From the NCBI RefSeq assembly GCF_963576615.1, contig NC_088716.1, positions 59,846,228-59,910,227 on the forward strand: a stretch of 64,000 nucleotides of DNA, given 5' to 3'. Position numbers and translations under genes: made by a program. A model generated the notes under the pieces. That model saw only the letters and a program-made list of their open reading frames with translations, was not told the origin of the DNA and made no database searches. Positions 18,364 through 63,430 of this stretch are shown one piece after another (position 1 is the first letter of the stretch; the number at the start of each line of letters is the position of its first letter). This DNA comes from Watersipora subatra. Taxonomy: Eukaryota > Bryozoa > Gymnolaemata > Cheilostomatida > Watersiporidae.

Positions 18364-21300
18364 TTATCTTTTTTTCCACGTTTTCTTGGCACGGGCCCCA
18401 CGCTGTCCTGGTTTTTGTCGCTCTTTTCTTCGTGGATCAATGGTTAACAACCCAGCTGAAAACAGCAAGCAGTGATTTCATGTAAACATCACTATACAAT
18501 AACAAAAAATACTCATGATGGGACAACTCATAGAGATGCCAACAGCAAATAACTAGATTATTTATTGGAGTCATTAACCAGATATATAATAGCATAATTA
18601 TACATACACACAGTTATATATACACACAAAGCTATACATACATGTGTATGTGTAACTTTGTGTGTGTGTATGTGTAACTTTGTGTGTGTTTGTGTAACTT
18701 TGCGTGTGTGTATGTGTAACTTTGTGTGTGTGTATGTGTAACTTTGCATGTGTTTGTGTAACTTTGTGTGTGTTTGTGTAACTTTGTGTGTGTGCATGCG
18801 TATGTGTGTATGTGTACACACATAACTGTGTATATATATATACACACACAGTTATATATACACACACATGTATGTATATACACACACATGTACAGTGTAC
18901 ATATAACTGTCTCAGATAGAAATATTTATCAGTGTCCCATGAATCACCAGACTAATGGGTAATAACGGTCAACATATCGTCATACTATCTGCTCTGCTGC
19001 TGCCTTAATCATTTAAAATTTGAAAATAAAACAATTCACTGTGAATAATTTGATAACTTAATCATGAAGGAAATAACAACTAATCAAAGTTATTCTACTA
19101 GTATTCATTCAGTATACTTTATTGGATAAACAGTTAGTTATAGCAGACATGAGTCACCTAACACTCTCACTGATAATGAGTCAGAGAGGCGTGTCACATA
19201 GGTCACCTAACACTATTACTGATGGTGAGTCATAGAGGAGTATCACATGAGTAACCTAACACTATTACTGATAGTGAGTCATTGTGGAGTGTCACATGAG
19301 TCACCTAACACTATTACAGATAGTGAGTCATAGTGGAGTGTCACATGAGTCACCTAACACCATTACTGATAGTGAGTCATAGATGAGTGTCACATGAGTC
19401 ACCTAACACTATTACTGATAGTGAGTCATAGATGAGTGTCACATGAGTCACCTAACACTATTACTGATAGTGAGTCATAGAAAAGTGTTAAACCAATACG
19501 TATCATAAGGTAATGATCGATACCTTGACGCATTTGCTCTTGAACATCTGTCTCCTCGAGAGCAGCAAGAGCTCGACTGAGGGCAAGCCTGACAGCCCCT
19601 GCATTGGCATTGCCTCCAATTCCTGTAACACTGCCCTCAACATCAACTCGCCCAAGTTTGTTGACAAACACCAGGGGAGACATCAACTGTTCCCTGCAAC
19701 ACGAGGGTTATTACCTGACAATCTGCATGGTTCAATAATGCACAAACAAATTGTTACAATTTATATCGCTGCTTTGTGTACTTTCCTGCAAGAGATCGCG
19801 AGACATGGACCCACCTCTGACCAAGCTCAGGAAAGTCTTCCAATCCTCTGCCATTGATGTCGAACAAGCCAGTGCCCTTTTCTCTAACAGTTACCTCAGC
19901 TTTAGAGGTTTTCCTTGAGCCCTCGGCACTCGCTTGCCTATGCCCGGTGTCAGGGGCGGCAACTACATCTGGAATTAGGACTTTACGAAAGCCTGAGGCT
20001 ATTGGTTTCCTATAACGCATGATGAAGTCCTTCTCAAGGACAGCCTTTGGGTGTCCCGCCAGCTTGTCCATGAGTACCACAAACTCTTCATACTGTATTT
20101 GAAAAAAACATGACAGCATAAGGCAGCAGCTGAAACAGAAAGTCAGGTGACTTAGTATCAGTATCATAAAGCGTAAACAATATAAAAGCCTCCTGGTGAT
20201 TGGTCAGTTATATTCTAGTGAACACTTCTATGCTATTATAAACTGCTAGAGAAGTATTTGATTCTAAACACTTTATATGCTGTTAGCTCAGAACCAAATT
20301 AAAAGGTAAAAAGATTGCCTACACATTCGAAGAGAATGTAAGACCCCGGTGCGTGAGCTAAGATTCAAACGCACACACAAGGTGTTGAATGTTTCACACG
20401 GTTTTATCATCAAAGTTAGCATGAACGAGTGTTGCAGCCCAACTCACTCTGCATTCACCAAACGAACATTAGTATGAAACTCAACAAGCATATATTTTAC
20501 TGATTGATTAGTTTATGGAAAAACAACAACCGGCGCTGCAACTATAAAACAATCCGTATTGAACGGCTTATCAAAATGACAGGAGACAAAATTTTATACG
20601 ATCGAACAGATTCTCACTACAAAAACACCCGTGTAAAATTTAACAACTAAACAGAGTTGATTGAAACACTCCAGTTAGACAATGGTCAGTCACTACATTA
20701 TGCTCTACTGCAATGTGGAAAGTTGGAAATTGAAACAAGTATAAACACGATTTATTTTATTCATTATACCAATTTGCTTTATTTTATTACTTAATTTGCT
20801 GAGTAATCTTATTATTAATTTTAATGAGCAAAATAATGAATTTTGTGGCAGTCTGACTGTTTGACCGGAATAAACTTTGACGTTTGTTATTTAGAAACTC
20901 GAACTTCACTAGGGGTAGATTAACCTACAAACTTGTAGGTTAATCTACCCCTAGTTTAACCTACTAAGGGTACCTTTATACCTACCTTTAAACTAACCTA
21001 CCCCTTGTAGGGTAGTTTCCCCTAGTTTTCTAGGGGAAACTACCCTACAAGAGCATTGAAATGTAGAAAATTTAAGCCGAAGCAAATAACCAGAGATTGT
21101 TGGTTTATCTGGGCATAACAAAGTAGAGTGATTCAGGGCAGATCTCTACCACTGAAACGTTTGAACATGTCCGCCTTTTGCTAAGAGCTAACCATGTGGG
21201 CAATGGCAGAGTTACTAATATTGATTAACAATTCAACAAGTGAACACGGCTGAAGTTAAACTCCCCATAAGTGGTAGAAGCATTACACTCACCAAACCCC

Positions 21301-24300: not shown

Positions 24301-27300
24301 AGTAATTGATGGATTAAGCTTGAGAATGCCACATTAATATTTATTGTCAAATGACCCTGACCTACATAGAATTGCACGGTTCCAGCATAGAACACATAGC
24401 TATGCCTAGCAAGAAAAAAGAGATTTCCCCGTATGGTATGGCCTTAAAGGTTGACTTGCAACAAAATTCAAATTACAGTTATTTGGTATCAAAAGATTCA
24501 CCATGTCTTACTCTGTTGTGTTGTAGGTGCCAAATATGTGGAAATGTGATTACAAGCCCTTAAAAGCTCCAAAACGAAAAGCTGCCTTAGATTGGAATCT
24601 GTTTATTTATCTGACGTATTCATTACAGTTTGGTTATCGTCTTGTCACGTGATGTTCTCACGTGTATTGAAAGGCCAATAAAAAGCTCACTATAAAACAT
24701 ATCGTAGCACTAGTTTATGACAAACACTTCGGGTTTTACCGAAGTCCCCGTATTAAATATAGATGCTCGCTACTTTACAGTTTTGTTTCGGCATTATTCA
24801 TATTCAATCGTCAAGTCGTACCCTAGGACACTTATGTATTCGCGGCATCTAACTTTCGCATTTTCGCGGTGTCATCCTCTCGCGAAAGTTTCATGTGCGA
24901 AACTAAACTATCATAACAAACGAGCGAAAAAGCGAAACTAAATAGCTTTGTTCATTGATACTGTAGAATGGAATTTTATAACATTTATTTTAACATTTTT
25001 AACGACCACTATAGCATCGTTAAAATATAAACCAACAAAATAATTTGACTGTCAAAATTTATTACATTATTATTTTGCAATTAATTATGATTATTTTCCT
25101 ATTAAGAATGATTTATAATGATAGGAATTTGATGTCAATGCACACGCATTAGTAGCGTTATTGTTTGTTGGGGACATCAATCAATGCAGTGAGCACCGTG
25201 TGTTGAAAGAAAATAAGACACACTGACACTCACAGTAGTACACAAGCAGCGTGGCTCTGGAAAGGTTTGGATTCACCACTGACACCTCTTCAATAACTTG
25301 TAATTTTTTGAGATTTGTTTTGTTTTAAGTGATGTGACTGACGAGACATTTTTAAATTAAAATAGGCAAAACTTGAACGCAGTTAAAACGCTCAGAAAAA
25401 AGACATCTTTTTCTTTTGAGCGTTTTAACAAAGATCAATTTTGCGGATTTCATTTTAAGTTCATTCGGAGGCTTTTACACTTTCGATGGGACATGGCCAA
25501 GCGGGTGTTTGATAAAACTTAATCTTCTGCAAACCTTTATAAAAGTCGTTAACAAAAAGATTTTGCCTCTGATGATGATAATAATGATGCCTAAGAACTA
25601 CTAAAAGTTGATGTTTGTCTCTATGGCTTGGAATGAAGTGATATTCTACAGCGATAAAAACCGTGTCCGTTGGGCAAATAACTTTTCAAATAAATGATGT
25701 TGAGGTCGAGTTATCTGAAGCAATTTATCATTGCGTTGGAACTGACCAAACAAATCTGTTTGAGTTAACCTTGTGTTTGAGATGAAATGTTACATTTTAT
25801 TTGAGGGCGAGTTATCCGAGTTGGACTGTACTTACCATAAAAAATTCCCAAAAAGTTGGGGCGGCTCAGCCGGCCAGCCGCCCCAGTGAAAACGGGCCTG
25901 TTGATAGTCCAAGAAACAAATGGCAGCAAGCGATCAAATTGCATTATCGACCGTGCCCACACCATTCTACCTGCGGTTCACAATTACAAACTAGTGGCCA
26001 AATGAAATTTTTTTTATCGGTGAACTGAACCTGAGGAATCTAATTATGTTTGTTCCACTACATTTATTTTCACATCACTATATTTTCGCACTCATCAGAG
26101 CTGCGAAATTAAGTGGCTGCGAAATTTTACTCTGTGAGCTACTCACGAAACTAAATACTAGCGAAATATAAGTGTCCTAGGGTAATCTGATAACGTGACC
26201 CAATACTTCGCAAATAATTTTTGCAGCACTTTTCGATTATCACAGGTAACCAACAGGCTCGTCATGATTATCAGACAATGATATGTACTCCTTCGAGCTA
26301 AGGTTAAAAAGTTTAACGATTTTTTACGGTAAGTTATAAGATATCAGTTCTAAAAGTGACAGCATAACAATGACGATAAAACAGACGCGTAAGAACAATA
26401 GACATGGTTTTATTGAATGCGTGAAGTATATTTGTGAAAATATTTCGACGAATGAGGTTGCATGAAAGTGTAAACAGAAACGATCCTGTAACAACTACAT
26501 CCCATTTGAGCCGTCTTGGAAAGTGAATCCAAACTACGGCAGTCTCGTGTGGCTGCGATTAACTGTACGTTTTTTTTAGATTTTAAGAGCTTGTAATCAC
26601 ATTCCCATATATTTTGCACCTACAACACAACAGAGTAAGACATGGTGAGTCTTATGATACCAAATAACTGTAATGTGATTTTTGTTGCAAGTCAACCTTT
26701 AAGTTAAGACATCATGTAAACCATTCTAGGACAGACGTTACACTTGATATCACACAGAAAATAGACCGCACACTTGATATCGCACAAGAAATAGGCGGTA
26801 CACTTGATATTACACAGAAAATAGATGGTACACTTGATATCACACAGGAAATAGATGGTCCACTTGATATCACACAGGAAATAAACGGTATACTTGATAT
26901 TACACAGGAAATAGATGGTACACTTGATATCACACAGGAAATAGACGGTACATTTGATAGCATACAGGAAATAGACTGTACACTTGATATCACACAGGAA
27001 ATACACGGTACACTTGATATTACACAGGAAATAGATGGTACACTTGATATCTCACAGGAAATAGACGGTATACTTGATATCACACAGGAAATAGACGGTA
27101 CACTTGATATGACACAGGAAATAGATGGTACACTTGATATCACACAGGAAATAGACGGTACACTTGATATCACACAGGAAATAGACGGTACACTTGATAT
27201 CACACAGGAAATAGACGGTACACTTGATATCACACAGGAAATAGACGGTACACTTGATATCACACAGGAAATAGACGGTACACTTGATATCTCACAGGAA

Positions 27301-30300
27301 ATACACGGTACACTTGAAATCACACAGGAAATAGACGGTACACTTGATATCACACAGGAAATAGACGGTACACTTGATATCACACAGGAAATAGACGGTA
27401 CACTTAATATCACACAGGAAATAGATGGTACACTTAATATCACACAGGAAATAGACGGTACACTTAATATCACACAGGAAATAGACGGTACACTTGATAT
27501 CACACAGGAAATAGACGGTACACTTGATATCACACAGGAAATAGACGGTACACTTGATATCACACAGGAAATAAACGGTACACTTGATATCACACAGGAA
27601 ATAGACGGTACACTTGATATCACATAGGAAATAGACGGTACACTTGATATCACACAGGAAATAGACGGTATACTTGATATCACACAGGAAATAGACGGTA
27701 CACTTGATATCACACAGGAAATAGACGGTATACTTGACATCACACAAGAAATAGATGGTATACTTGATATCACACAGGAAATAGATGGTACACTTGATAT
27801 CACACAGGAAATAGATGGTACACTTGATATCACACAGGAAATAGACGGTACACTTGATATTACACAGGAAATAGACGGTACACTTGATATCACACAGGAA
27901 ATAGATGGTACACTTGATATCACACAGGAAATAGATGGTACACTTGATATTACACAGGAAATAGATGGTATACTTGATATCACATAGAGAATTTGATAAC
28001 AATATAGGATGACAGTGACTAAATTGAGTTAAAGCAAATAACACAATAGAAAAAGCATAACATGTTCTCTTTGAACTCGTCAAACTCTTGTGAGAAAATA
28101 AACTCAAAATGTACATACATATTTTTCTGCAAGACTAGTTTGTGACATTTTGAATCTCATAAAAATACCTATACAGAGCTTATGTAAGATCAAATATAAC
28201 TCATACAGGGCTTATGCAAGATCAAAGATAATTCAACAGGGCTTATGCAAGATCAAAGATAACTTATACAGGGCTCATGCAAGATCAAAGATAATTTATA
28301 CAGGGCTCATGCAAGATCAAAGATAATTTATACAGGGCTCATGCAAGATCAAAGATAATTTATACAGGGCTCATGCAAGATCAAAGATGATTCATACAGG
28401 GCTCATGCAAGATCAAAGATAACTTATACAGGGCTTATGCAAGATCAAAGATAACTCATGCAAGATCACAGCAATAGCTTGCCTACATTTCCAGGCAAGA
28501 ACTTCATTCGTTAAATATTTAAATGGAGGTCAAAGATATCAGAGCTAATCGCTTATTGTGGGTAGTGAAATGAGCGTATAGTTAAGATAACTCCTCGGGT
28601 TCTGTTTTTTATTAAAGATACAGATTGGCTAACACTCAACAGACAGTCTAGAGCTGAACACACAAATATGGCGCATCACCTACAATATCAAATACCTACA
28701 GTAGCAGATCATATCAGATGTATTGCTATATGAGCTCACATCAATGTGTTCCTGGGTAAAGGTTTCAGGGTCCGCACCCATCATGTTAGCGAGGTATCGT
28801 CTTCCCATCTCAAACTCCTCCTTATGTTCAGCCAACATGTTCTCTGACAAACAAAAGCAACCATTTATAAATAACACGCTTCGATGAAGCAGCCCAAGTT
28901 TGTAAGTTTTGTGGCTTGTTATGAAATCTTGATAAAATATCTCCGGTGTCAGATCACTAATAGTTGAAAAGAAATAACTAGCTAAAATGTAATGGCCAGT
29001 TAAGAAAACCAGATGAATCGTTACTCCCATAGTGCCCATATGACATATATGTAACTCAGATGAGTAGTTAACTCCACAGCACCCCATGTGACATATATGT
29101 AACAGCAGTTTTGTAGAGTTGCCCTACCATCAATATGCATTTACGCGTAAAACTCCTAGTTTAATACTAAAGTTGATTGGTTTACAACAAGTCATGTGAC
29201 AGAGGAGCCATTTTTATTTAGTTTTCTCCAGATTTTATGTAACGTGTTAAATGTACTGGAGCTATCAAGCTGAAAGCATCATAACGTGTCATGTCAATAT
29301 GTCACATAATAAAAACTAGTAATATAAACAAATAATATACAGTAATAATATAAAACAGCAATTTTTGTTTCTATATCATAAAATATGGGTGCAAATGAAT
29401 GTGCAGCATTAAATATCCTACCATTATCCTACCTAATATTCATTATCTGGGTACTGCAAGATTAAAACTAATCTATAAATAAAGACAAAAACAAAAGTAT
29501 GCACTAGTAAATATAGTTTTAACAACTGCATCAACTTGATTACATAAACTGTTTTGTCAATATTTCATATTACCAACATTCTACGAATGTTGATAAAATA
29601 TATAATGGTGAAGTTGCAAACACATTACCTTGAAATGCATGCTTTAAACCTTAGATGAGGCGATAACTTTGGAAGCAGTCACCATTTAACTTCTATACTA
29701 TGATTGGGCAAGCGTCTGTCCCAACTATCATATAACCAATGTTAGTTGGGACATCAGGTGCTTACCATAACAGTATCGCCTGGGTTAGGACCAAGTTATA
29801 AAGCAAAATTCAAGTTGAATAAAAATAACTGTACTGCAGGAAAAACAAAATACAAATGAAAATAATTCAGACATCGTTTGGGAATGATCGAACTATTTTT
29901 AAAGTCAGAATTTTTATCACTCCAACAAAATAAAACAAAGATTAAAAATAGCCAGAAACTAACAGTGATATTACCATGGGCTCGAGCTTTTTCCAGATAG
30001 TCCTGCATAGCTTTGCTTATCCGCAATACTCTGTGGTGGGTTGTGTCTTCTGTGGCGGGTAGCTTTTGATTTGAAGTTGTACAGGTACGAGTGTTTAGAT
30101 GTTGCAAACATTTTGCATGAGAAAATGGCTAAAATATTACAACATGCTGGTTGATTGGATGAACGATGTGCATACACATTCTATGTAGATGTTTGGTTCC
30201 ACCATGTATAGCTACAATTGTTGCAAGATTTGCTTTAGATCAAGATTCAACTTTGAGCTCTTAAAACAAAACAGAATACAACTTAGTATGGCAGACGATT

Positions 30301-31379: not shown

Positions 31380-32880
31380 TTGGCATTTTTCAGAATCAAT
31401 CGAGTGGTTTGATGGCTTTGTTTTTATGTGTTGTAAAGCTGGGCCAGACATGCTTCGTAAAGAAGGTCTACAAATAAATGTGAAATTAACTTCTAAATGC
31501 ATAGCTAAAATATACAATTATTTTTTTGAAATTGGATAATTGCCAAAAGCATAGAAATCAGCAAATGTTACTCTGCACAAAAAAGGGCAGAATGGAAATA
31601 CCAAATAACTATAGACCCGTTTCACTAATAAGCATCCCATGCAAAATTCTAGAACATGTGGTTTTGAGAACACTTGATTTTAAACTAGACTCTATATTCC
31701 ATAACCGCCAGCATGGATTTAGGAGAGGACTTTCTTGCAAAACCCAGCTTTGTGGAACTCTACATGACTTATTATACTCAGCTGAAGCATCAAACAACAT
31801 ACATGCGGTTGTACTTGATTTCACAAAAGCATTTGACAAGGTACCTCATGAGCTTCTAATGCAAAAACTTTCTACTATACAAGGTATTGACAGTTACTTA
31901 TTAACATGGATGCATGACTTCTTGTCTGAGCGAAATCAATGTGTGGTGCTCAATGGAGTTAAATCTACTGTTCTGCCTGTGACCTCAGTAATACCATAAG
32001 AATCTGTATTAAGGCCTACTCTCTTCTTAGTGTACATCAATGACCTCTCAGATTGTATAAACTGCTCAGTAAGTCTGTTTGCAAATGACACTCTGAGTTA
32101 CCAAGTGGTCAACAACACAACTGATGAAAATAGTTTTCAAAAAAGCATTGATTCACTGCAACAATGGGCAGATAAATGTATAATGAATTTCAATGCAACT
32201 AAGTGTCACATTATCGGCTTTAACAACAGTAGAGTAATATCAAAATACGCTCTTGGTGATGAAGTTCTAGACTGTGTAGAATATACACTCTATCTTGGTG
32301 TCCAGTTACAATCTAACCTAAGATTTAACAAGCATACATGTATTTCTGAAAAAAAACAGTAGTTGCAAAGCAACAACTAGGCATGATAAAAAGAGCCTTA
32401 TACTGGGCTCCACAATCTGCTCGATTGCTGGCATACAAGTCACTTTGTCGTCCACATCTTGAATATGCTGCAGCAATATGGGGTCAGTTTCTAAAAAACA
32501 CATAGCATGTGTAGAAGCTGTTCAGAATCAAGCTGTATGTTTTATAAGCCACATTAAAGGATGAGAAAGTGTTAGTGAAGCGAAATAAAAGCTCGGTCTT
32601 GGGCTATTACAAAAGAGACGTCGTGACATCAGACTACAACTTTTAATGAGGATACTTAGTGAAGAGGATAAGCATTCAGCACTGAACAGTTCATACGACC
32701 AACTTATTAACCAATCCAAGCCTCACATTCAAACTTGAGCAAACGGTAAAGGACTATCATCATCCGTACATGCCACTAAAAGTGAATACTTTAACAGTTT
32801 TTTACCTAGAACCATAAGAGACATTAAAGGTCTTACTTATAACCACTCAACTAAAGCACCATAAACTCATGTAGCAAGTT
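31380..32880 (+). mobile_element. 5'-truncated LINE (CR1/jockey-like reverse transcriptase)
   Basis: Starts in the thumb-side part of the RT domain and runs to the end of the protein. Text in order: NYRPVSLISIPCKILEHVVL, QHGFRRGLSCKTQL, AVVLDFTKAFDKVPHELL, WMHDFLSERNQCVVLNG, LVYINDLSDCIN, LFANDTLSYQVV (normally FADDT) and a C-terminal block near 32370-32720. An in-frame stop falls just before the usual VPQGSVLGP motif (near 31998), and further frame breaks follow, so it is inactive. It inserted in the gap between MRPS9 and CFAP298. The 3' end is placed near 32880 where protein similarity stops; no clear tail repeat seen. Confidence 0.85.
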
Positions 32881-43344: not shown

Positions 43345-44515
43345 ATGGATAAAGAACAGAAAAGAGAGAAGTTGACCACAGCTCAAACTGGTATGTATAG
43401 CAACATATAATTTTTGTAAAAAAGATTTCAAAATCTTTGCAAAATTTAGCTCAGGTTCTTCTATAATACCACAACTTTTTAAAGCTCAAGTCAAGCAAGG
43501 CAGACTTGCATGACTGGGCATTGAAAAAATTGGTTCTTTAATGCCTTTTTGTCTATTCTAACCAATAGGAAATATAACTTTATATTTTGGTAAACTATAT
43601 TGATGAAAGGTTAAAAAGCATTGGCATACTTGAAGTTTTGAATAATATATATAATAATAATATATAATATTGTATAATAATGAATAATATACCATGAAGT
43701 AAAACACCTCAAAACACTCGCTTTGAATGAAGTTACAATGGATACAATAATTGGTTGATTGTATTATTGTTATTACTATTGTTTTAGAAAATGGTTGCAA
43801 ACCAAAAAGAGTAGTAGAGAAGCGTAACACGAGAGAGAGGACTAGAATAGGAGTCATAAATACAACTTACCAAACTTTGAGGCAGTTCTTTCCTCGCAAG
43901 AAGTGTGGTCGTCGAATGAGCAAGCTCGAGATACTTCAGAGAACGATAAATTACATAAAAGACCTGAAGAGCGCTTTGAATGACGAGTTACCAACTTCTC
44001 CCAGTAAGCTAGCAAACACAGCGCTGCCAAAAAAGCCTCGAAACAGACGAGCCAGACCTACCGAAATATTTCCTAGACTATCGGAAAAAAACTTACCATC
44101 AGCGGCTCAAATACCTAATCGATTACCCCTCTCTATGACAGAAAACACTCCACCAACAACCAGCGGCATATCAAACCAAGGAAATTTTGAGCAAATGCCA
44201 TATTGGCAAAATGAGCTACACATGTCTCAAGGAGACAACTCCGAGAATACTAGGAGTTGTCAGTACGCCCTTCCTATGAATGAAGCAAACACTTGTTTGT
44301 ATTACAATCAGCATAACCCTTTGCCACATTCCTCTCCTGTAAACTCACAGTGCAGTTCGGCTTATGGTACGTCACCAATCACCGATAGTCCAGAGAACAG
44401 TCAGTGGCGTATTGATTTTAGCAAAAGCCCTGTCGAGGATGAGGGGGCATTTTACCCTCATAATAATTCGTATCAATATTCAAGCCATGATTGGTTTGTA
44501 GAAAGCAGCTACTAA
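43345..44515 (+). CDS. Achaete-scute-like bHLH transcription factor
   Basis: Two exons, 43345-43390 and 43788-44515, joined in phase 1 to give 257 residues ending in TAA. The bHLH domain spans about residues 23-79. The basic region is EKRNTRERTRIGVIN, with Glu32 and Arg33 where family proteins contact the E-box (CANNTG). Helix 1 is TTYQTLRQFFP, the loop RKKCGRR, and helix 2 MSKLEILQRTINYIKDL. The MSK-x-E-x-L start of helix 2 is typical of achaete-scute (ASCL) proteins, nuclear factors that act as heterodimers with E-proteins in neural or secretory fate choice. The basic region is divergent from ASCL1/2 (RNTRERTR against RNERERNR). The long C-terminal part is Ser/Asn/Pro-rich and ends SSHDWFVESSY; ASCL proteins often end in a short acidic-aromatic motif with WF. 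Orthology to ASCL1/2, ASCL3/4 or another group A factor is unresolved. The gene lies alone between inverted repeat copies. Confidence 0.85.
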
Positions 44516-49855: not shown

Positions 49856-49861
49856 TTTATT
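49856..49861 (-). terminator. Poly(A) signal of the EF-hand/death-domain gene
   Basis: AATAAA on the minus strand begins 12 bases after the TAG stop at 49873-49875, implying a very short 3' UTR. Confidence 0.5.
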
Positions 49862-49872
49862 GACACACTCTA

Positions 49873-52800
49873 CTATCCATAGATGTGGGGAATAAGATCA
49901 GGCCTGACACTACGAAGTGATGCTTTCATAGCCCCAACCGTAGCATCTTCTTCTTGCAAGTTTCGCCAAGACTTCAACAGCGCTCGGATCTATGGAAGAG
50001 TAAAATGTCAACATCAGTATCCTGACCAGTGTCTGTCGATGTGTAAAATTATAAGCATAAAGGTAATGAAATATTTTCTCATAGCGTTCATATACCAAGT
50101 ATGGGCTTTGCTTACCTTAGCGGCTGAGTCTGAATACTTCATGTGAATCCTGTCGATCTGACTGTCTGAAAAGCCTAGAGCTGTCATAGCAGCTTCCCAA
50201 TCTGGTGAAGAGGCCAAAGCGGCAGCTAAATCGCTGTAACTGTCTAGACTAACCATTGCCTCTTCCGAGAGGTCTTTGGCAGCACTTGTGTCTTGTCTGG
50301 CTCTCAACTGTTGAATAAATTTGATATAAAGGCTGACTCTAGTGTTTGTGATATATGGTGGTCTACATGAGCATATAGAATGAAAAAGTGCAACAGTTCT
50401 AAGGCCGGTTCACAATATGTCGCCCTATGTTGGAGTTGTCCTCTCGGTGATTATTCCTGGAGGATGTGACCATAAACCAATAGGATCGTCGAGGAAACCT
50501 ACTTCGGTAGAGAATGCAGCTCACAAACTTTCCCGATAGTTCACTGAGCATCCACGACGGCCTGTGCGATGCGCACCATTTCGGAAATGATGCTTTGCCA
50601 TCGCGAGTTGCTCAATCTCTATTCTCTTTAATGACAGTTGTGAAACTAGTACAGTGGAACCTCGGTTCTCGAACATAATCCATTCCAGTAAAGCAGCAAA
50701 CATAACACTAAAGGCTGTGTGTGTGGTCAGTGAGTGATGGTACAGTCCCTGAGTGCTGGAGAGGCACCACACACCAGTTTATAATTATAAACAAATATGA
50801 TTATACCTGAGGTGAGAACTTGTCTTTGGACTCCAGATTAATGTGGGGAGGAATAACATCAAATTCTAATATGGAACTTAATTGCTCAGAAGGGAGCTGG
50901 TGGACGAGGCGCAAAAAATTCTCATAGGTTAGATCTTCAGGCCTGCCTAAAGACATTAAAAATATTTTACTTCAGATGTTCAGGAGAATGAAAAATGAGT
51001 GCAGCATTGGCACTTTAAAATACCAAAGAAAATCGCAAACGTGTAGCATTTGCGATGATCTGAGTATTGCATCTACTTCAAACACTATTTAGGCTTCTAG
51101 AGTTGCGTTACTAGCATATTGTATCAGTTTGGTCACTACATCCACCATCCATATAAAATAGAAAGATGAAATACTAGGAGAACCCTGCGCTAGACTATCT
51201 CTGACATTAGAGAAAAGCTGTCAGCTGACCTGATGAACAATGTTACACAGCAATAAATTTGGACCAATTTTGGCCGACAGCAGAGCTAACGCAGCAGAAC
51301 TAACGCAGCAGAGCTAACGCAGCAGAGCTAACGCAGCAGAGCTAACGCAGCAGAGCTAACGCAGCAGAGCTAACGCAGCAGAGCTAATGCAGCAAAGCTA
51401 ACGCAGCAGAGCTAACACAGCAAAGCTAACACAGCAGCTAGCCCATGTCTGTGTAAAGGTACGGCCACACATGCCGATTTGTTCGTTGGTTCTGACGGAA
51501 ATCACGAAATGAACAAAAAATACAGAATTATTCGGCCAAAATTCACAGAATTGTCAGTGCTATGCATGCACACCGAGATCGTCGACGAAACGCTTTTAAT
51601 TGGCTAAACAAATTATTGGCGAGCACTATTCTAGCATCTTTTGCAATTTATATATTTCGAGGCACATAAAGCGAAACTCAAGAAAAATACTAACGCAATT
51701 TGCCATAGTAAATACTATGCAATTGATTTGATTGCGCTAAAGATGGCAACTCTTTCTACAACGGAAATTTTGCTAGTAAATAAAAGTTTTTATTATTAAA
51801 AAAGAAATGATTCATAGCCTGTGTCCAAACGATAAAAAAACAACAATACCGCAATCTAAGCAGATGCATCGTATGTACCATGTAGAATTACACTGGTACT
51901 TTTATTGTGTGTCTTAAAATGTGTCTTGGACTATACCAATTGCAAAAGCTGCATAAATAGCGCTTGTTAATAATTTGTTTAACCAATTGAAAGCATTTTT
52001 CCGACAATTTCGGTGTGCGTACACAGCTCCAAAAATTTTGTGAATTATGGCCAAATAATTGTTTTTCGTTCATTTCATGATTCCGGTCAGAGCCAACGAA
52101 AAAATCGGCATATAGGCCTATGGCTGTACCTTTAAAAGGCAATGTAAGATTCTAGAATATTCTAAAAAACATTCATTATCACTAATTTGTAGCATCTATG
52201 CAATTCTAGTTCACTTTTAGCATATCTAACCAAACACAACAAGAATTAATATCTAAGAATACAACTGCAGTAGACGCTCCCATAACGTATACCTCCTATA
52301 ACGTAAATTCCAGATAATGTAAAAAATTTATGCGAAGTTTTTGCTTCATACTACGTAAAAAATTCCAAATAATGTAAAATGTCAAGTCGGGCGAGTTATC
52401 AAACTGGATTAAAAATTACAATGATTGATTACTAGTTTATCTCGCCGCAGTGTGAAAGAAAAAACGATGTGCGTATAACGTTATATCTATTATATAGCGT
52501 TATATCTATTATATAGCATTATATCTATTATATAGCGTTATATCTATTATATAGCGTTATATCTATTATATAGCGTTATATCTATTATATAGCGTTATAT
52601 CTATTATATAGCGTTATATTTATTATATAGCGTTATATCTATTATATAGCGTTATATCTATTATATAGCGTTATATCTATTATATAGCGTTATATCTATT
52701 ATATAGCGTTATATCTATTATATAGCGTTATATCTATTATATAGCGTTATATCTATTATATAGCGTTAAATCTATTATATAGCGTTATATCTATTATATA

Positions 52801-55800
52801 GCGTTATATCTATTATATAGCGTTACATCTATTACGTAGCGTTATATTTATTATATAGCGTTATATCTATTATATAGCGTTATATATATTATATTTGTTT
52901 GTTTATTTTCATCTATAATATAACTACAAAAAATAATATGAAGAGTGTGATATGTAATTTACATGATATTCTAGTTCATCGTAATAGATCGTCAAATGTG
53001 TCGACAAAATAGAGAATAGGACAGCTGCGCATTGTTTTACAAATGCTTGAAGACGATCGATTACCACAGGTGTTACAGCGTCGGTCTACCAATCTGAAAG
53101 TAACAAGTGGATTATCGTCGAAAGTTATCTTTTATCCTAACCTTGACCTTTAGATACAGATAAACGACAAACAGGTAGAACCATTTTTTACAGTAAGAAG
53201 ATTTTGTTGTTTTGCCTTATCGAAAATGTATAAAATATTTGTTATTAGTTTTACTTTGCAGTACAGACTTTGCTGTTTGGATAAAAAGCAGATCATTGTA
53301 AATGAATGTCGAAAATGTGCAGTCCACATCTACTTGTAAAATTACCACAATCAAAAAGTCTATAAAACCAGTGAAATTGATCTTATGGAGAAAAGTTGTC
53401 GATGCAAACCAATAATACTGCAGCTACGGTACAGCCCACAAAATAAAAGATTTAAGTCAAGTTTTTCCTTTTTGCATGGCCAAAGGAGTGAGTTTCGAAA
53501 GATGTTGAAACAAATTAGGCAATTTACATGTATTTTACTGTTCTCATAACGTATATTCCCTATATCATAAACATTCCTGGAACGGATTATCTACGTTGTA
53601 GGAACGCCTACTGTATGTACTTGTGTCGAAAGTAATAGTCAAGTCAAAGTAATAAACCATAGAAGGCAGCCTTACTTAGGATAGAAACACCATCTAATTG
53701 TCTATAAAACAGAACAAAGAAGTACAGTGCACCCTCAGGATACGATTTTGATCCGTTCCAGGATTGGAATCGTCTGATAAAAAAATCGTATGTCGGGGTA
53801 TAAAAATATAGTAATTATATAATGCAAAATCATCTGGTAAAAATTGTCAATATTTTACATAAGGGCTGTACATATTAAAAATTAATAACAAAATAGCATG
53901 TTAAAGATGTAGTTGCGTCAAAAATGAAATTAGGACCCATAAAAGGCTAAAACATCAGCTACAATTTGATGCCATTTTTGTCTTTGTAGACCAACCCTGT
54001 CCAGAGATATATGCGTTTGAATGAGGCCCTCTTTTAAAAAGCTCACGTTCCAGCGGGTGCCAATTTCGTGACGTCACTAGCTTGTTTTCTGAAACGAAAC
54101 CACGAGCGATAAATATGAGGTCGCTTCGTTAGCCAATCACGATCGCGAAATTTTTATATAGACCGTAATAAATGTTATCACTCGTAAAACGCGTTGTCTG
54201 TGATCTCGAAGATTCTCATCGCTAGAGAATTCATGCTCATCGTTACTGATTCAACGCGTTTCAACAATTACTAAGTTATACATAGTTTTAAAATGGCTTC
54301 AAGTTCGAGCGACCGCTACTCAGAGTTATCTGAGCAACGTTTAGTAAAAGATTAGAGTAGACAGCCTATGGCCAAAGCTGACAGGCGTCAGCAGCGTTTT
54401 GCTGCAGAAGAAGACAGAATGGAGGTAAATTAACTTAGAGTCTTCTATACTTTAGTAAATGTAATATTTTTTATAGTCATAAAAACATATACTAATTAAT
54501 AAAATGATAATTCTTTGCTATCTCCAATCATCGTTTCATAGCTTATCTGCCGTTTTACCTAGCTATAATATTTTTTTCGAATTTTCTTTGGTAAATTAGA
54601 GTCATGATTACAAATTATTTTCACACGTAGGAAGTGGGTAAAATCGATTGATCATTGCAAATCTTTAATTTCCAGAACCAAAGCTTCGAATAGTTGGCTT
54701 GGCGTACTTGTGCCTTTATTAAATGTTTATTCGTTTTTAAAATTACACTCGCAATCTATTTAACTCCCAATTTGGAAGCTGTCAATAGATACGCTTTAGA
54801 ATGACATATCTATGAATGACATATTTATTGCATCTACTTTGTTTACATTTACTTGTTTTACTGATTACAGAATGTTTATGTCGTCCCACCAGCCGAAGAA
54901 GCTTTGTCAGTGTGGAAACTGCTATAAAGGAGAAAGCAAGACTTGAATGCGTGCTGGATGATGTTTTGTTTGAGTTTGTTGCAGTAGATGAATTTGTCTT
55001 ATTGTATCAGCTAATACTATGTGAGTGGCCACGACTTGATGAATATTTTTAATAAAAGCTTTATGCCGAGATGAAAATATTTTTGCTTGTAAAAATTATA
55101 TAATAAAATAATATTGTTGAAGATAACGCAAAACATGATTTGCAGAATATTGTAGTGAATCGGATATGGTATATGGGTGTCCGCAGAACTGGAGAATGTG
55201 AGTTCAAATCCAGTTTGCAGCAGACTTCTCATCCTTAAAACTCTATCCCTGTCTATATTCTTTTCAAAGAGGTGGCTTGCTAGTAGTAAGAAACTAGTAC
55301 GTAGGCAATAGGTAATAGGCGACACAATGTGGGCGGGGCTTATGGGAGGCTGTATATCGTTTATATGGGTAGCTGCAGAACTGTGCTGATACAAAGACCG
55401 CGTTCTACATAAAGTGACTAGACAGAATTACCGTAGACCGGTAGAATTGGTAGTCGGTACCCAAATGTTTACACAACATTTGGAGAAAGTGAGTAGAACA
55501 AAATTTCAATTTTCGTTATTTGAGGCCTTTTAAACATTCATAATAATGCATCTGTAGCAGGATTTAAAATTTTATTCTAGCCAACACGAGCAAATACAAA
55601 ATAAGATATATGCCAATAGAGCCGCGTAAGACTAGACTTTTATCGCAAATAGCCGATGTGAATACGAGAGATAGAGAGAGGTTGCCAAACGCGTGACATC
55701 ATTTTTGGCGAGGCTGGGCACGTTTTTGTGGCCTGAGCGTTTTTACGGTGATCAGATTTTTTCGGTTTTAATCTTCAAATATCTTGGCAATGCGATCGCG

Positions 55801-57996
55801 TAACACAACAAACAACATATCAACTAATAGAGAAAAAAAATGCTTTCTTTTAAAATCAACTTAAATTTTGACGCAACTACATCTTTAACCTTAGCAACTA
55901 TAGTTACCTACAGTAACTTTAGTATATTTAGTACTAAACACACACATCAAGCTAAGTTTGAGTATGTATTTTTAAGTACTTCATTGGATTTACTTGAAAT
56001 TTATCACCTATTAGTTTCGGGCTTGATTTTCAATATAATTTTAGCTGACCTCATTAAAACCTTTTCCAACCTAAAAAATCCAAATAATGCTGTTTTCGTA
56101 ATGAAGTGGATTTTTGTTAGCAGGTTGAGGGAAGTTGTCTGACCACTAAATGTATATATATCTTTCTCAAAGTATATCTGTCTGTCTGTCATGCCGGCTA
56201 TAACTATTAAAATCTTGGAATAACGAATTTGCATCGCAGAAGGTTTAAACTCGAACCTTCCAGTTTGTTAGTCAGACGCCATACTAACTCAGCTACAATC
56301 ACTTGATCAATTCACACGGCGATATATGTCGCAATATATAGGAACAAATACACAATGGCTAGTGCATACTACAAATTGCGTAAGGTGATTGCGTAAGGTC
56401 ACAGTGAGGGTAGCTCTTATTAGTACATTTACTCCAATTATGCATTGGCAATGTGCCAGGCTAATAGCAGTGGCAGGCAACTCTCATTACTTCTCATTGT
56501 TTACAAGCTGACTTTGAATACCCGAGCAACGCCAGGTAGCACAGCTAGTCTTTTGTATAAAAGGATCGCCACTCCAATATGGCTTCTGGTTTTAAAGGGA
56601 AAGTATTATCGATTTACACACGAGAATTGCTGAATTGAGAGAAATTGGTCATCGGGTCTATTTCAGGTGTTGTGAAAATATTTTCGGCAAGCAGCATTCC
56701 AGGGTCTTTGTTATTTTGATGTACGTAATAAGCACACCAACTGCTAAATTTGAACTGGGTGAAAACTTTGTTAAATTCATATGATGAACAAAGATTCAAA
56801 TGGTGAAGTGAAAAAATCATCATGTTCCACTTCGTAAATGAAAAAATCGTATATTAGGGTGATCGCATCCTGAGGGTGCACTGTATAACTAAGGAGCAAC
56901 TTATGTTATGGTCTAATAGTGAGAGCCTTTAACCAGATCTTTTGGATTTTTAAAGATTAATTGACCTTTGACATTTTTAATCAATTCAGAAAAAAACCTT
57001 AACAGATCGGGGAAAATACTATGAATGAACTAATAGGCTGTTTTGACCGACCTGCTGCCTTGCTGCCAGAATCAAAGACTGTCTTCACATAAAGAGTTAA
57101 TGCTGCTTCATTCTTATCAGGGTAAATTCGCTTTAGTATCTTCCCAAACAGGTCCTCGGTCAGAGCGCTGCCTAACAAGTGAGTAGTCAAGTTGAGGTCA
57201 AGGTAGCTATGTAAGGGCTAGCAGCATCCGACTATACTTTGTATACATTATGTATACATTATGTATACATTACCTATACACACTGCATACATAATGTATA
57301 CAATACGAATACCACATCTATACATAATGCATAAATGATGTACATATCAAGTATACAGACAACATAAGAATAACTGACAGAAACTACTTCTTGATCTAGT
57401 TTGGTTTTCGACAGTACATAGAGGCATGCAGGTAGACACGAATGTTCCAACAATATACCTACCATTGTTAAATAAGGCAAATATAGCCTTAGTTCTCTCA
57501 TCAACACTAGCGGTATTCACCCAACGCATAGCATTTAGGAAGGTATGGAAGTAAACCTGCTCCCCATCAGCCATAGCCAGTAGCATGTTGCGTAACAATA
57601 CATTATCCTGAAATGAGGAATATATGAATGTTACGCTTGTACAAGGAAATATAAAATCCGTAGAAAGGCTTGAGCCTGAAAAATAATGCCAAGCTTAATT
57701 CTATCTAAGTCATATTTGGTCTAGAGTCAATGACCTCCTTTGCACAGTTAGGAAGTATGGGGGAGGGTTTTGATTATGGCATAAAGTGATTTTACACAGT
57801 TGTAGATATATTGTTATAATTGATAATATTAACCTTGTATATTATTTATTTAGGAATGTTGAAAAGGCATTAAGATGTTTAGCCTTCAATATATACACCA
57901 AATATACATCAACTAAGTTATTATATATATGTGTATATATGTATATATATATGTGTATATATGTATATATATATATATATAAATATATATATACAC

Positions 57997-58032
<36 letters not shown>

Positions 58033-61000
58033 TATATATGTATATATACATATTATATATGTATACATACATATATGTATATATATATACATGTATATAC
58101 ATATATGCTTATATACATATATATACACATATATATATAAATAACCTCAGATTAAAAAATACCAGTACAAAGGGTTGCTGAAAGCAAAAAAATAATGCTT
58201 GCCTTAGAATTGAAACAAGGAATTACAAAGAAAATGAAATTTTTCATTTGATTCTTTAAAACATCTACAAAGCGGCAGTTATCACCAAGAAGAACGTGAC
58301 AGCGATGTCAAAACCCTGTAGTAATTACAAGTGAAGAGGCTAGAGGAGCTGTTTAAAATATATTCATAATAAAAACAAAAAATATAAATCTATAAACTAT
58401 GTTAATTCCAAGATCACGTATCTTACATTGGACTAACTTTAGATGTCTGCTTCACGTCTCCTTTATCGCCAAATCTATGTCTCCATTCACTTGTCTCACA
58501 CATAGAGACCAAGTGACACTAAACCTCTGTTCAACGTTTACCTATAACTTGATTTATCCACTTGATTCCTTAACACACAAATGCACCATTTAGTTTCTAC
58601 ACCTACATGTAGTAGTTCACATAGTGTTACAATGTATTATATAATGTATTCCTTTAAACTCTATAGGAAATGCCTAAAATATCTCTCATGATGTTTGTTA
58701 GGAATAGAACAAATTAAACAAAAAATGTTTATGTATTCTTATAAAAACATTCACTTCAACTTCCGACGATTTCGACATATGAAGCAAATATCAGAATGGA
58801 TTAGTTTCGTGTCGAGATTCAGCTGTTAATAATTTGCTATGTATATGAGATGTGGCAGATATCATACTTTTTAATAGTCTCAAAAGTGCTTCCTGGAGTT
58901 TTGGGAAGTTTTCGTGCAATGATTCTGTAACATGATTACCAAAGGATTGTGATCCTTTTGTAACATTTTGATCCATATCTGTAACAAGGACTTTTCTCAC
59001 GCCTGAACGCAATTGCCAAAAGTTCATTCATGTATTTGTGCGATATTTCACACGATGTGCCATGAGATGATCAATTTGAAGCAAAACTTTGCCCATGCTG
59101 GTCTGTGATGAGTACGACCATAAATTAGTTAGCTTTTGAGTGTCATTGTACTGTAATACAAGCTGACTGGTCAGTTTGTCTTTTACTGTGTTCATTACAT
59201 TACTATCGAGTTCTCAATTCCAAAACCTGCTTCAAAAAGCCCTCACAAGGATTAGGTTATGATGGTCATTTCTGTCATGATTTGTTTGAGAAATTTGAAA
59301 GTCCCAACTAGTCTCAGAACAGTATTCTTGTCTGTTGGATTAGGCATATCAGTGATGGTTTATATCTTGTCAATGTCAGGTTTGAAACCATTTGCCAATA
59401 TTAATAGTTGAACATAAGTTATCTTCATGATCTTCAATTGTGACTTCTCAGAGTTGAACTTCATGTTGAGCTCAAGTACTGTAACTTCATTAGAGCTTCA
59501 TCTAAGTCCTCTTGATCCTTGCTATTTTGTAAAAAAAAACATTTACTTGTAAACGACTAAATACTTCTTTCAGACGTTCTGCAGAATCTCAGCAACAGGT
59601 CCAATGCCTTTGGGTAGGCAATTGAAGGTAAACTGGTCAAACAGTGTTATAAAGATTCAAATCAGGCAGACATTAAATTCAAATAGTCAAATCTTTTCAT
59701 CTGACTTGACATGCCAGCGACTATGCATCATGCCAATCTGAAGTAATGCTTTTCTTATGCCAGCAACCTGGTATACGATGTCTACTAATGTTGGTAAGTG
59801 ATGGTGTTCTTTTAGCATATCTGTTTCAGTTCTTTCAGATTTAAATAAATGTTAGTTTTAACATTTTTGTAACTAGTACCTCGCTGCTCACTCATTCTGT
59901 TGGTTGACCAGCTTAAGCTATTGTAACATAGGTTTGTATTTTGTTTTGCTAGGCCTTAACCATATCTATTATAGCCAAGTAGCACTATTAAAGGTCTTGA
60001 TTACAGGCTTTTTACTATTCTTGTCAATCCTGACGATTCGTTCATATTCCAAACACCCCATAAGTGTAAAACAGTCTTGGTAGTTAAAGAAAGAATTTTC
60101 GGCCCAAAAAACATTTGAGTGTTGAGCGAATCTGGGATAGATGTCAACATCAACTAATTCAAACCAAACAATGGCTTGATTTTTACTCATCATGGATAAC
60201 ACGCTTCTCCCAACATTATCTATTCCAAGTCATGCATATGTGTCAGTACATCTTAACCTGAAGTGGGGAAGAAGGCTGGCTTCAGCATAAGTGTCTATTT
60301 TGAACAAGTTCTCCCTTGCACAATTATTGTGGGTGAAATTTTAACACTTGGTAGGGCTTTACAATCCAGACATTGCAAATTTCTACAATACCTACAAAAT
60401 AACCGTTGAGGACATTCCCTCTGGCGGAAATGGCATTTACACTCCCAACTTTTTATTGACATTTGCCCACATTTGTGGTACTGCTTTCCATTTCCATTTG
60501 ATTTTAAACAAGGCTTTTTCAGTTTTGTATTACATCACTGCATCAACATACTTGCTTCTCAACACGCACGCTTATATAGGGATTGGTAGCCACCTTACAG
60601 ATGTGAAAAAAACTACCAATTACTGGTGGTGTGTTCTACTTTTCTAGTTAGAATCTAGACGCACCACAACACTTGCTGCAGGTATGCGATATTGATATTC
60701 ACCAAATGTTTTTGGCCTTTAGTCAACGCCTGGAATATTTGTTAGTAGTGGATGGCAGCTGAGGACTAAAATAGGCAGAATACCTCGAGTGTCTTTGTTT
60801 CATTAAAATTACTTTTCCATGCACTGTAGAACATTACTTCGATGTAACTATAGATATATATATATATATATATACGTATTTAATATAGGGTTTTCAACTA
60901 CCCATAAGAGTGGTTTAATAATGGCCATTATCATAAGGTGAAGACAGCCAAAGAGTTGGTGAAGACCAATTAAAGGCGTGCCACTCAAACAGCACAGCCA

Positions 61001-62845
61001 ATTTTAAAAATAAGACCTTTGAGACAACTGAGATTTTTAATGAATACTCTAAAGTTGTTTTTCACAGAATGACTAGTGCCCCTCTGGACCATGTTGATCT
61101 TCCCGCAAACAAATGTCCATTAAGGATAACAAGCGATGGAGCACTAAAACTGCTGAAAGGCCTGAAAAGCGGAAAAACTTCCAACCCCTGATAAATTGAG
61201 GCAGAAGATCTTAATCTGGATCCAGATGTTGCCAGTAAGATTTTGGCAAGCATATTCTAGTACTTGTTAGTCTTAGAGGGAGTTGCTTCTAAAGAACTGT
61301 CTGTTTCATCGAGGGTTTCTCAGGGTTCTGCACTCGGTTCCTCCTTGTAATTAGTTTATATCAATGACATTTTAGCCATCCTCAGAGCATCCTCGATTAA
61401 GCTTCTTGTGGATGACAATTTACACCGTTGTCTTGACAATAGCTCTGCGGACTCGTGAAATTTCAAAAGGATTTATCTCTGCTCGATCAGTGGGCCATTA
61501 ATTGTAAAATGAATTATAATCCTGATAAATGCCAAATTGTCCGGTTTGCCAGAAAAGTCAGCGGCAATCGAAATGTCTCATATTACCTGAATGGCAAATC
61601 ATTAACATTAGTAAACAGTTTTAAATACTCGGGAACTTTCATTTCAAATGATTTGATTTGGGATATGTATATAACATCACAATAAAAGTCTAATAACGCC
61701 TAAAGTCAATAAGAGTAGTGAGCGATTAGGCCTGATGAAACATATTTTGTTTAATGCTCTGATGGGGTAAGGTGGGTGGGCATACCTCACTTTTTGTCAA
61801 CCACTACTGGAATACACAAGTTCGGTATGGAGTCCCATTGAACACACCAAATAGAGTCACTGGGGGTGTTCAGAAAAAGGCAGTTAGATTCATAGCAGGG
61901 ATCAGGGTAGGCAGAAAATTACAGAGGTGACAATGTTTTTGGAAATCGATTTCTTGAAGTTGGGATGCAAAAATGGCCAAATGTCTCTGATGCTAAGGAT
62001 TTGGCAAGATGACAGTCATGTTTCCTATATTGATAGACTAGAAAACTAGAACCTATTTGATCAACTAAAAACACTATTCATGATTATGAGACTAGATTGG
62101 TTGCAGGTGGTGCTCTGTTGGCGGTGAGTGCAAACACCGGATTTTATCTCTTAGCTTTTTCTATCTGGAACATCACGTAATTTGCGCGGTATACCATAGT
62201 TTTAAAGATCATTATTTTAACACTGAAGTAATGGCCTTTTTTCACCCAAGTTAGGGATCTATAGGCTCTCGATATACCTAGACCTACAGTCATGAGTAAA
62301 CCACAACGTCGACACTAAAAAGTAGATTTATGGTAAATCTATAGGCCTAAAGATTTACCAATCATTATAGCGTCGAAGTGCAATAGATGAAAGCATATTT
62401 TACCTGTCCCTTGAACCTACAACGACCATAAATTACCGATGAAAGTACTTTTAAAAACTTCGACTAAACTCAGTAGGTCGACTCTAACAAAAAACTGTTA
62501 TTTCGCTAACACAATGGTAACACTTTTTGATTAGATGAATACAGGTACGCGATAAAGCCCAAAATATTTGCAAATACCTATTACATGTAGGTTGCTATTC
62601 GAAAAGAATGCAACAGCAAAACAAACCTTAAAACGAGGCATTTGCAAAATACTTTTTCTATCAAGCACTCCATTTTCATCACAGCCCAGCTGCTTAAATC
62701 GAGTCCATAGTCGTTCCACTTCAACAATAGAAAATCTGGTTAACGTTGCATGCTTTGTTATCCAATCTTTTTGCTTGGGATTTGTTACAGTTTTCGCTAG
62801 CCCGTTAGGATAGTTGTGAAATGATTTTGAGACGATATCCCCCAT
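49873..62845 (-). CDS. EF-hand (calcineurin-B-like) plus death domain protein
   Basis: Six exons: 62845-62627, 57607-57463, 57171-57052, 50946-50807, 50307-50116 and 49989-49873. All splice phases agree and the product has 310 residues. The start MGDIVSKS fits N-myristoylation (Gly2, Ser6). Residues about 35-210 follow the calcineurin B/CHP plan. First EF helix: [20 protein letters not shown], then a loop [11 protein letters not shown] ending in the family-typical MP. Next come [10 protein letters not shown], a helix [20 protein letters not shown], and a last EF-like unit ending [18 protein letters not shown]. The acidic calcium ligands are mostly lost, so calcium binding is doubtful. Residues about 228-306 read as a death domain: [20 protein letters not shown] with Trp245, then [24 protein letters not shown] and [13 protein letters not shown]. 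Death domains form homotypic signalling complexes. I know no named family with this order of domains; a membrane-tethered signalling adaptor is inference. Introns are crowded with transposons and satellites. Confidence 0.88.
50652..50692 (+). mobile_element. Solo end of a Tc1/pogo-like element
   Basis: CAGTGGAACCTCGGTTCTCG after TA is a typical mariner/pogo-type terminus; no partner end was found nearby, so it is a remnant. Confidence 0.45.
51285..51440. repeat. 14-bp minisatellite, about 11 copies
   Basis: Unit AGCAGAGCTAACGC. Intron 4 of the EF-hand/death-domain gene, next to the MITE at 51455. Confidence 0.93.
51455..52133. mobile_element. MITE with ~120-bp terminal inverted repeats
   Basis: AAAGGTACGGCCACACATGC at the left and an inverse related sequence ending GCTGTACCTTT at the right. 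The arms match with about 80 percent identity by eye over roughly 120 bp. 679 bp, no ORF of note. It abuts a 14-bp tandem array on its left. Confidence 0.75.
52268..53613. mobile_element. Tc1/pogo-like element carrying an internal 19-bp satellite
   Basis: Left end CAGTAGACGCTCCCATAACG, right end the inverse of CAGTAGGCGTTCCTACAACG. Both begin with the CAGT that marks many Tc1/pogo/Tigger elements. The similarity continues inside (AACGTA, ATTCC). 1346 bp; about a third is a 19-bp tandem array. No transposase ORF recognised. Confidence 0.7.
52466..52895. repeat. 19-bp satellite, about 22 copies
   Basis: Unit GCGTTATATCTATTATATA, highly uniform. Contained in the Tc1/pogo-like element. Confidence 0.96.
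53725..56883. mobile_element. TA-flanked DNA transposon, 3.16 kb, degraded
   Basis: TIR CAGTGCACCCTCAGGATACG at the left and its inverse (one mismatch) at the right, each next to TA. Of Tc1/pogo type by ends. Inside are short ORFs without clear identity. One stretch near 54870-54960 reads CQCGNCYKG in one frame, which I could not place. A SINE copy (56155-56552) is nested inside. Confidence 0.7.
56155..56552 (-). mobile_element. SINE-like repeat, copy D
   Basis: Minus-strand copy with A box TAGCTGAGTTAG and B box GGTTCGAGTTT, ends related to copies A-C, nested in the TA-flanked element at 53725-56883. Confidence 0.75.
57236..57350. repeat. TATACATTATG-type short array
   Basis: Degenerate repeats of GTATACATTAT in intron 2 of the EF-hand/death-domain gene. 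Confidence 0.7.
57918..58140. repeat. (TA)n-rich microsatellite
   Basis: About 220 bp of TATATA/TACATA repeats, open in all frames. Intron 1 of the EF-hand/death-domain gene. Confidence 0.95.
58790..60660 (-). mobile_element. Ty3/gypsy-like LTR retrotransposon fossil (pol part)
   Basis: Minus-strand protein remnants in the order of a gypsy pol gene. There is a possible protease remnant (FKIDT near 60.3 kb), the start of reverse transcriptase near 60.0-60.1 kb, the RT end with [10 protein letters not shown] near 59.35 kb, and RNase H-like text at 58.8-59.05 kb. No LTRs, gag or integrase were recognised, so it looks like an internal fragment. It is thoroughly broken (roughly ten or more breaks) and looks old. 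It lies in the first intron of the EF-hand/death-domain gene, same strand. Confidence 0.75.
60990..62140 (+). mobile_element. Decayed LINE fragment (CR1-like reverse transcriptase)
   Basis: Plus-strand similarity to the RT of CR1-type LINEs in broken frames. A piece near 61060-61260 contains [20 protein letters not shown] and [14 protein letters not shown]. Then near 61300-61440 come [21 protein letters not shown] and VDDN. The best preserved part (61455-61680) reads [20 protein letters not shown], then [14 protein letters not shown] final part near 61790-61990 includes [10 protein letters not shown] and [10 protein letters not shown]. Inactive, with several stops and frameshifts. It lies in the first intron of the EF-hand/death-domain gene, on the opposite strand. 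Confidence 0.8.
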
Positions 62846-63430
62846 AGTATAACATTAAAAGACACAACTTCCATACATCTTAGCGAGTGCTCGCAAGTTC
62901 AGTAGTTGTAGTAACGAACGAGCAGCAATTTTCGCAAATCAAACAGTCAGCCTGAGAACCTAACACAAACAAAATTAAAAAACCTTGTATGTGGGGTGTG
63001 CGTGTGGTTACAATGGCTATCTTTGACGAATTTATGCTTCTGCTAGAATTATAGGATCATTAAAAATAAATATGCATTACTAATTAGATAATATTGCAAT
63101 TGTTTGTATTTTATAATATAAATGCATTATCATTAAACACATAGTCTGCCAGAACTGCATAAAATAGCATTAAGCCATTTTTGGTGCAACATCGAATGAA
63201 TTTGGGCTATAGCTTTGACATCGACATCAACACGCACGGTTTTAATATACATTGGTTAATTAATCAATTTGTACCACAAGACTATGAATCAGTTATACGC
63301 CACACCACTACTCGTATGAGATCATCACGCGAGTAACATAATAAACGTGTATAGTGTAGCAAATAAAACAGGAAAGTTATTAGCAGATATCTCTTTACCG
63401 AATAGTTATACTCAGCGTTGTTATTTGCAC
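62846..63430. promoter_or_regulatory. Shared head-to-head promoter interval
   Basis: The 585 bases between the divergent start codons at 62845 (minus) and 63431 (plus). No core element stands out; the interval is AT-rich. A bidirectional promoter is inferred from spacing only. Confidence 0.4.

Follow-up and report, generated by a model that had tools for sequence, protein, structure and literature searches.

A minus-strand gene of six exons, read here in Watersipora subatra, would encode a 310-residue protein that joins a calcineurin B (CNB)-like module of degenerate EF-hands to a C-terminal death domain. The reading that we prefer, with a probability of roughly 0.55, is that of one gene whose product carries a degenerate, calcium-independent module of the CNB/CHP type (residues ~35–180) and a FADD-like death domain (residues ~240–306), and acts as an adaptor. 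The gene lies in a stretch of 64,000 nucleotides (referred to below as the window), which corresponds to positions 59846228–59910227 of contig C9 in the assembly used for all genome searches (784 Mb in 239 contigs).

The exons, their content and the neighboring signals are listed in Table 1. A preliminary description of this DNA had proposed six exons with agreeing phases and a single 310-residue product, and splicing and translation reproduced this model, with GT/AG at the exon borders, intron phases 0/1/1/0/0, and a TAG stop. The protein stretches quoted in that description (24 and 10 letters long) were found in the translation, as were the two tryptophans that it had singled out, Trp245 and Trp280; further tryptophans are located at positions 28, 47, and 102. 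The start codon has an A at −3 and a G at +4. An out-of-frame ATG is located 10 bases 5′ of the start codon, at 62855 (minus strand), and could lower translation if it is within the mRNA.

Table 1. Exons and associated features of the candidate gene (positions within the window).
Feature	Position	Strand	Content
Exon 1	62845–62627	−	start codon, residues 1–73; N-terminus MGDIVSK, pseudo EF-hand 1; donor AAG/GTTTGT
Exon 2	57607–57463	−	residues 74–121 plus the first base of codon 122; pseudo EF-hand 2 and beginning of pseudo EF-hand 3
Exon 3	57171–57052	−	residues 122–161 plus the first base of codon 162; pseudo EF-hand 3 and beginning of pseudo EF-hand 4; donor CAG/GTCGGT
Exon 4	50946–50807	−	residues 162–208; pseudo EF-hand 4 and linker
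Exon 5	50307–50116	−	residues 209–272; linker and first part of death domain
Exon 6	49989–49873	−	residues 273–310; remainder of death domain, stop codon
AATAAA polyadenylation signal	49856–49861	−	begins at 49861, 11 bases past the stop
Dispersed repeat in intron 4	about 50401–50640		intron positions ~167–406, ~240 of 499 bases; located by a genome search with the intron

The introns are not uniform in composition. Intron 4 has a G+C content of 0.43 and each of the other four one of 0.35; the dispersed repeat in intron 4 may explain its higher value. Intron 3 contains a short tandem array with an AT-rich unit, at about 52470–52890. Elsewhere in the window, we observed an open frame that encodes a basic helix-loop-helix domain (43751–44512, plus strand; Pfam E 9.1e-13), a reverse-transcriptase fragment, perhaps of a LINE (31505–32362, plus strand; RVT_1 E 2.5e-15 for the scanned part, 31505–31999), and a long array of repeat units that is free of stops in several frames of both strands (26674–28028). 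A subthreshold match to ribosomal protein S9 (19757–20203, minus strand; E 0.0028) may represent an exon of a gene for a mitochondrial ribosomal protein.

Residues 37–178 gave the top match of the whole protein in the PDB set, which was calcineurin B (5b8i_B, E 3.8e-7). When the EF half was used alone as the query, the same chain was matched with E 2.1e-7 and p22, which is CHP1, with E 6.7e-4, and the 19 PDB matches with E up to 10 included neither CIB nor mEAK7 chains. The similarity to CNB amounts to 23.9 bits, whereas residue shuffles of the EF half did not exceed 9.2 bits (480 of 500 shuffles scored), in line with the earlier view that the first part of the protein is CNB-like. Of the proteins encoded in the same genome, CNB scored 21.3 bits and CHP 14.8 bits against the EF half; hence, the tie to CHP is weak. 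Next to this best match, the candidate shares with calcineurin B (PPP3R1) and CHP an N-terminal MG and the hydrophobic EF pattern, and the LP that follows loop 1 in these proteins has its counterpart in an MP. It differs from them in its added C-terminal death domain, in the positions of the three introns of its EF half when compared with the same-genome genes, and in its four calcium loops, all of which are degenerate. No Pfam EF-hand model appeared in a scan at E up to 10, in which the HMMER filters drop most matches above ~0.1.

CNB has four functional EF loops and CHP has two. In the alignment of the candidate to the CNB chain from the PDB, positions 1 and 12 of loop 1 are occupied by Gly and Ser, respectively, loops 2 and 3 are shorter by two and three residues, respectively, and loop 4 carries a three-residue insert together with Gly, Lys, Ala, and Asn at positions 1, 3, 5, and 12. 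No loop of normal length has preserved both ligand 1 and ligand 12, and the loss of calcium ligands that had been pointed out earlier extends, as missing ligands or altered length, to all four. From these loops, we strongly infer that the EF half is independent of calcium.

Two other EF-hand families were considered as the parent of the EF half. mEAK7 (TLDC1) resembles the candidate in starting with MG and in having a degenerate EF-like N-terminal part, and it carries TLDc, not Death. The mEAK7 sequence, which is identical to a PDB chain, scored 0.3 bits against the candidate, and this parent was rejected by score. The second family is CIB, represented in the genome by a gene that we named CIB-like from its likeness to human CIB1. 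The EF half scored 3.9 bits against the protein of this gene and 2.7 bits against human CIB1; CIB was set aside as a parent with one intron in common and without sequence support.

Intron positions were compared among the same genes. The CNB and CHP genes of the genome (L027 and L038) have three intron positions in common, with identical phase (columns 38, 136, and 204), and intron positions in the CNB/CHP superfamily therefore look old. None of the three EF-half introns of the candidate matches an intron of CNB (four placed) or CHP (six), so that the gene structure gives no sign of a recent copy of a CNB or CHP gene. An extra CNB intron, adjoining the CNB start codon, was seen outside the intron alignment. 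The first coding intron of the candidate coincides with that of the CIB-like gene at column 81, phase 0, in all three alignment modes. A rough count, in which 3 introns are compared with 12 over ~480 possible places, puts the chance of one such match at ~7–8%, and the common intron is suggestive only. As to the parent of the EF half, the sequence points to CNB/CHP and the one intron to CIB.

The death domain that had been read in the C-terminal part was recovered by HMM search. Pfam Death (PF00531) matched residues 242–299 with 34.9 bits, compared with a gathering cut-off of 22.6 (E 1.7e-8), and was the sole model above its cut-off in the scan of the protein; one DUF stayed below its own. An NCBIfam match to a NACHT antiphage protein was rejected as subthreshold, with 14.3 bits where the cut-off is 1000. 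Residues 243–306 also matched FADD death-domain chains in the PDB, with E values from 1.1e-5 to 5.7e-5. In the PDB set, no death domain is closer in sequence than that of FADD, which is, like the candidate, a two-domain protein with its death domain at the C-terminus. Unlike FADD, the candidate has a CNB-like N-terminal half and no detected DED, none having been listed by Pfam up to an E value of 10 (the same filters dropping most matches above ~0.1). Its death domain scored 12.8 bits against that of the FADD-like protein of the same genome, compared with 30.9 bits against the PDB FADD stretch. The death fold comprises six helices. An AlphaFold model built from the single sequence of the 64 residues of exon 5, with the end of the domain absent, has four helices at a pLDDT of 74. 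A Foldseek search with this truncated model returned seven weak matches, the best with E 4.3 and none a death domain, a negative result that carries little weight.

Genome searches, in which the best candidates were scored, gave no second copy: the whole protein yielded six matches, all to its own exons, and the death domain alone yielded two, both its own. Related genes exist separately, namely CNB on contig C7, CHP on C5, the CIB-like gene on C9, and, on C1, a FADD-like gene (L002) that combines DED with Death. A Pfam search of the genome found eight Death places, not including the candidate, in which an intron splits the death domain. Six of the eight were rescanned (the minus-strand places L003 and L008 being left out), and all six exceeded the cut-off.

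That a single copy was found, that all four EF loops are lost, and that an out-of-frame ATG precedes the start codon would also be compatible with decay, that is, with a fusion that has been retained and yet is non-functional. Against this stand a frame of 310 codons open across six exons, two folds that are still recognizable with E values of 1e-7 to 1e-8, and the presence of a polyadenylation signal, and we regard decay as very improbable.

The single-gene reading depends most on the joint between exons 4 and 5. Exons 1–4 are linked by unbroken homology to CNB and exons 5–6 by unbroken homology to Death; the 4–5 joint is the only one without such continuous homology, and the phases agree there. 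The splice signals at this joint are weak: among all minus-strand GT and AG in the window, donor and acceptor rank at the 93rd and 83rd percentiles, respectively. In a splice-score test, the gap was shuffled 2000 times, and an equal or better in-frame path arose in 252 cases; the splice weights were general animal frequencies and not trained on this genome.

Two genes or products could therefore be envisaged on the strength of this non-significant joint: a CNB-like protein of 209 residues with its end in intron 4, along with a small, 85-residue death-domain protein that starts at Met226. Readthrough beyond the exon 4 donor adds a Val and then meets a stop, so the EF-only product (residues 1–208 plus Val) would have about the usual size of CNB and CHP, and intron 4 offers an ATTAAA, at 50632, as a possible end of its transcript. 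However, this ATTAAA, the only one in intron 4, sits inside the dispersed repeat. The repeat was traced in 39 of 40 scored places elsewhere in the genome (of 1382 first-look places), on both strands and with 70–77% identity. AATAAA, the only other hexamer sought, does not occur in the 499 bases of the intron. Once the repeat is subtracted, the distance from exon 4 to exon 5 is ~255 bases, which leaves little space for a gene end and a new promoter. Furthermore, the exon phases agree, and Met226 is the first in-frame ATG in the open frame of exon 5. The position of the ATTAAA within an inserted repeat, the lack of AATAAA, and the short remaining gap favor one gene, and we consider two separate products unlikely. 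Exons 1–4 and 5–6 thus probably form one gene, as judged from the genomic sequence, and are likely to be joined in a single transcript.

The preliminary description had also proposed a myristoylation signal and, through it, a membrane-tethered protein. The N-terminal MGDIVSK retains Gly2, Ser6, and Lys7, and, according to PMC7048800, Lys7 forms a salt bridge with the enzyme. The myristoylation pattern G-{EDRKHPFYW}-x(2)-[STAGCNDEF]-{P}, as given in PMC1885993, bars a set of residues to which Asp3 belongs, and the N-terminus does not conform to it; the same source mentions many false positives and false negatives for the PROSITE myristoylation signature. The proposed signal is therefore not confirmed, and we regard it as doubtful. 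The notion of a myristate tether is weakened accordingly: attachment to a membrane is possible in view of Gly2, Ser6, and Lys7, and disfavored by Asp3.

Both modules are known, and their pairing looks unusual. Domain shuffling joins death domains to many partners, and we know of no named family with a CNB-like part followed by Death. In open-licence literature, we found no protein that combines a death domain with EF-hands or a calcineurin-B part. In Aplysia, an EF-hand has been described in a TIR/ROCO protein, and the labels in a figure legend of the same work include Death and EF-hand; the passages concerned leave it unsaid whether the two occur in one protein (PMC9334734). Mammalian calmodulin binds FADD and TRADD, as described in PMC4313936, so that EF-hand and death-domain proteins act together there in trans. 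These are separate proteins, and the contact with TRADD depends on calcium, whereas the candidate is a single chain with its calcium loops lost. Pattern searches for relatives gave seven matches in viral contigs and 22 in genome contigs, none of which was confirmed. This absence says nothing about animals, since the collections consist of viruses and prokaryotes.

CNB and CHP clasp amphipathic helices of partner proteins, and death domains form assemblies with one another. By analogy, the CNB-like half of the candidate may hold the amphipathic helix of a partner, and its death domain may recruit, or compete for, other death-domain proteins, in which case the protein would be a scaffold that connects a helix-bearing partner to a death-domain complex. 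An adaptor role in immunity or apoptosis, as suggested earlier, would suit the domains and the existence of another gene with DED plus Death.

Alternatively, the product of a single gene could be inhibitory, its death domain being a decoy that occupies death-domain assemblies and its EF half merely a stabilizer or locator. In favor of a decoy, Pfam lists a single death domain, and no part that could relay a signal (DED, CARD, caspase, or kinase) accompanies it. It is established, however, that noncatalytic adaptors of two domains, FADD among them, are activators, and we consider a decoy rather improbable, somewhat more so than two separate products.

Under the preferred reading, an adaptor encoded by one gene, we tentatively suggest, at less than even odds, a class of death-domain adaptors that take their input from a calcium-dead helix clamp of the CNB/CHP type and not from a receptor death domain, so that a membrane transporter or a phosphatase-like partner would be wired directly to the complex. 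If the halves were separate products, the locus would hold an ordinary pair of divergent genes. If the adaptor reading is true, a calcineurin-B-type clamp would be a new input to death-domain complexes, and the protein would be a natural cis version of the contact between calmodulin and FADD in mammals.
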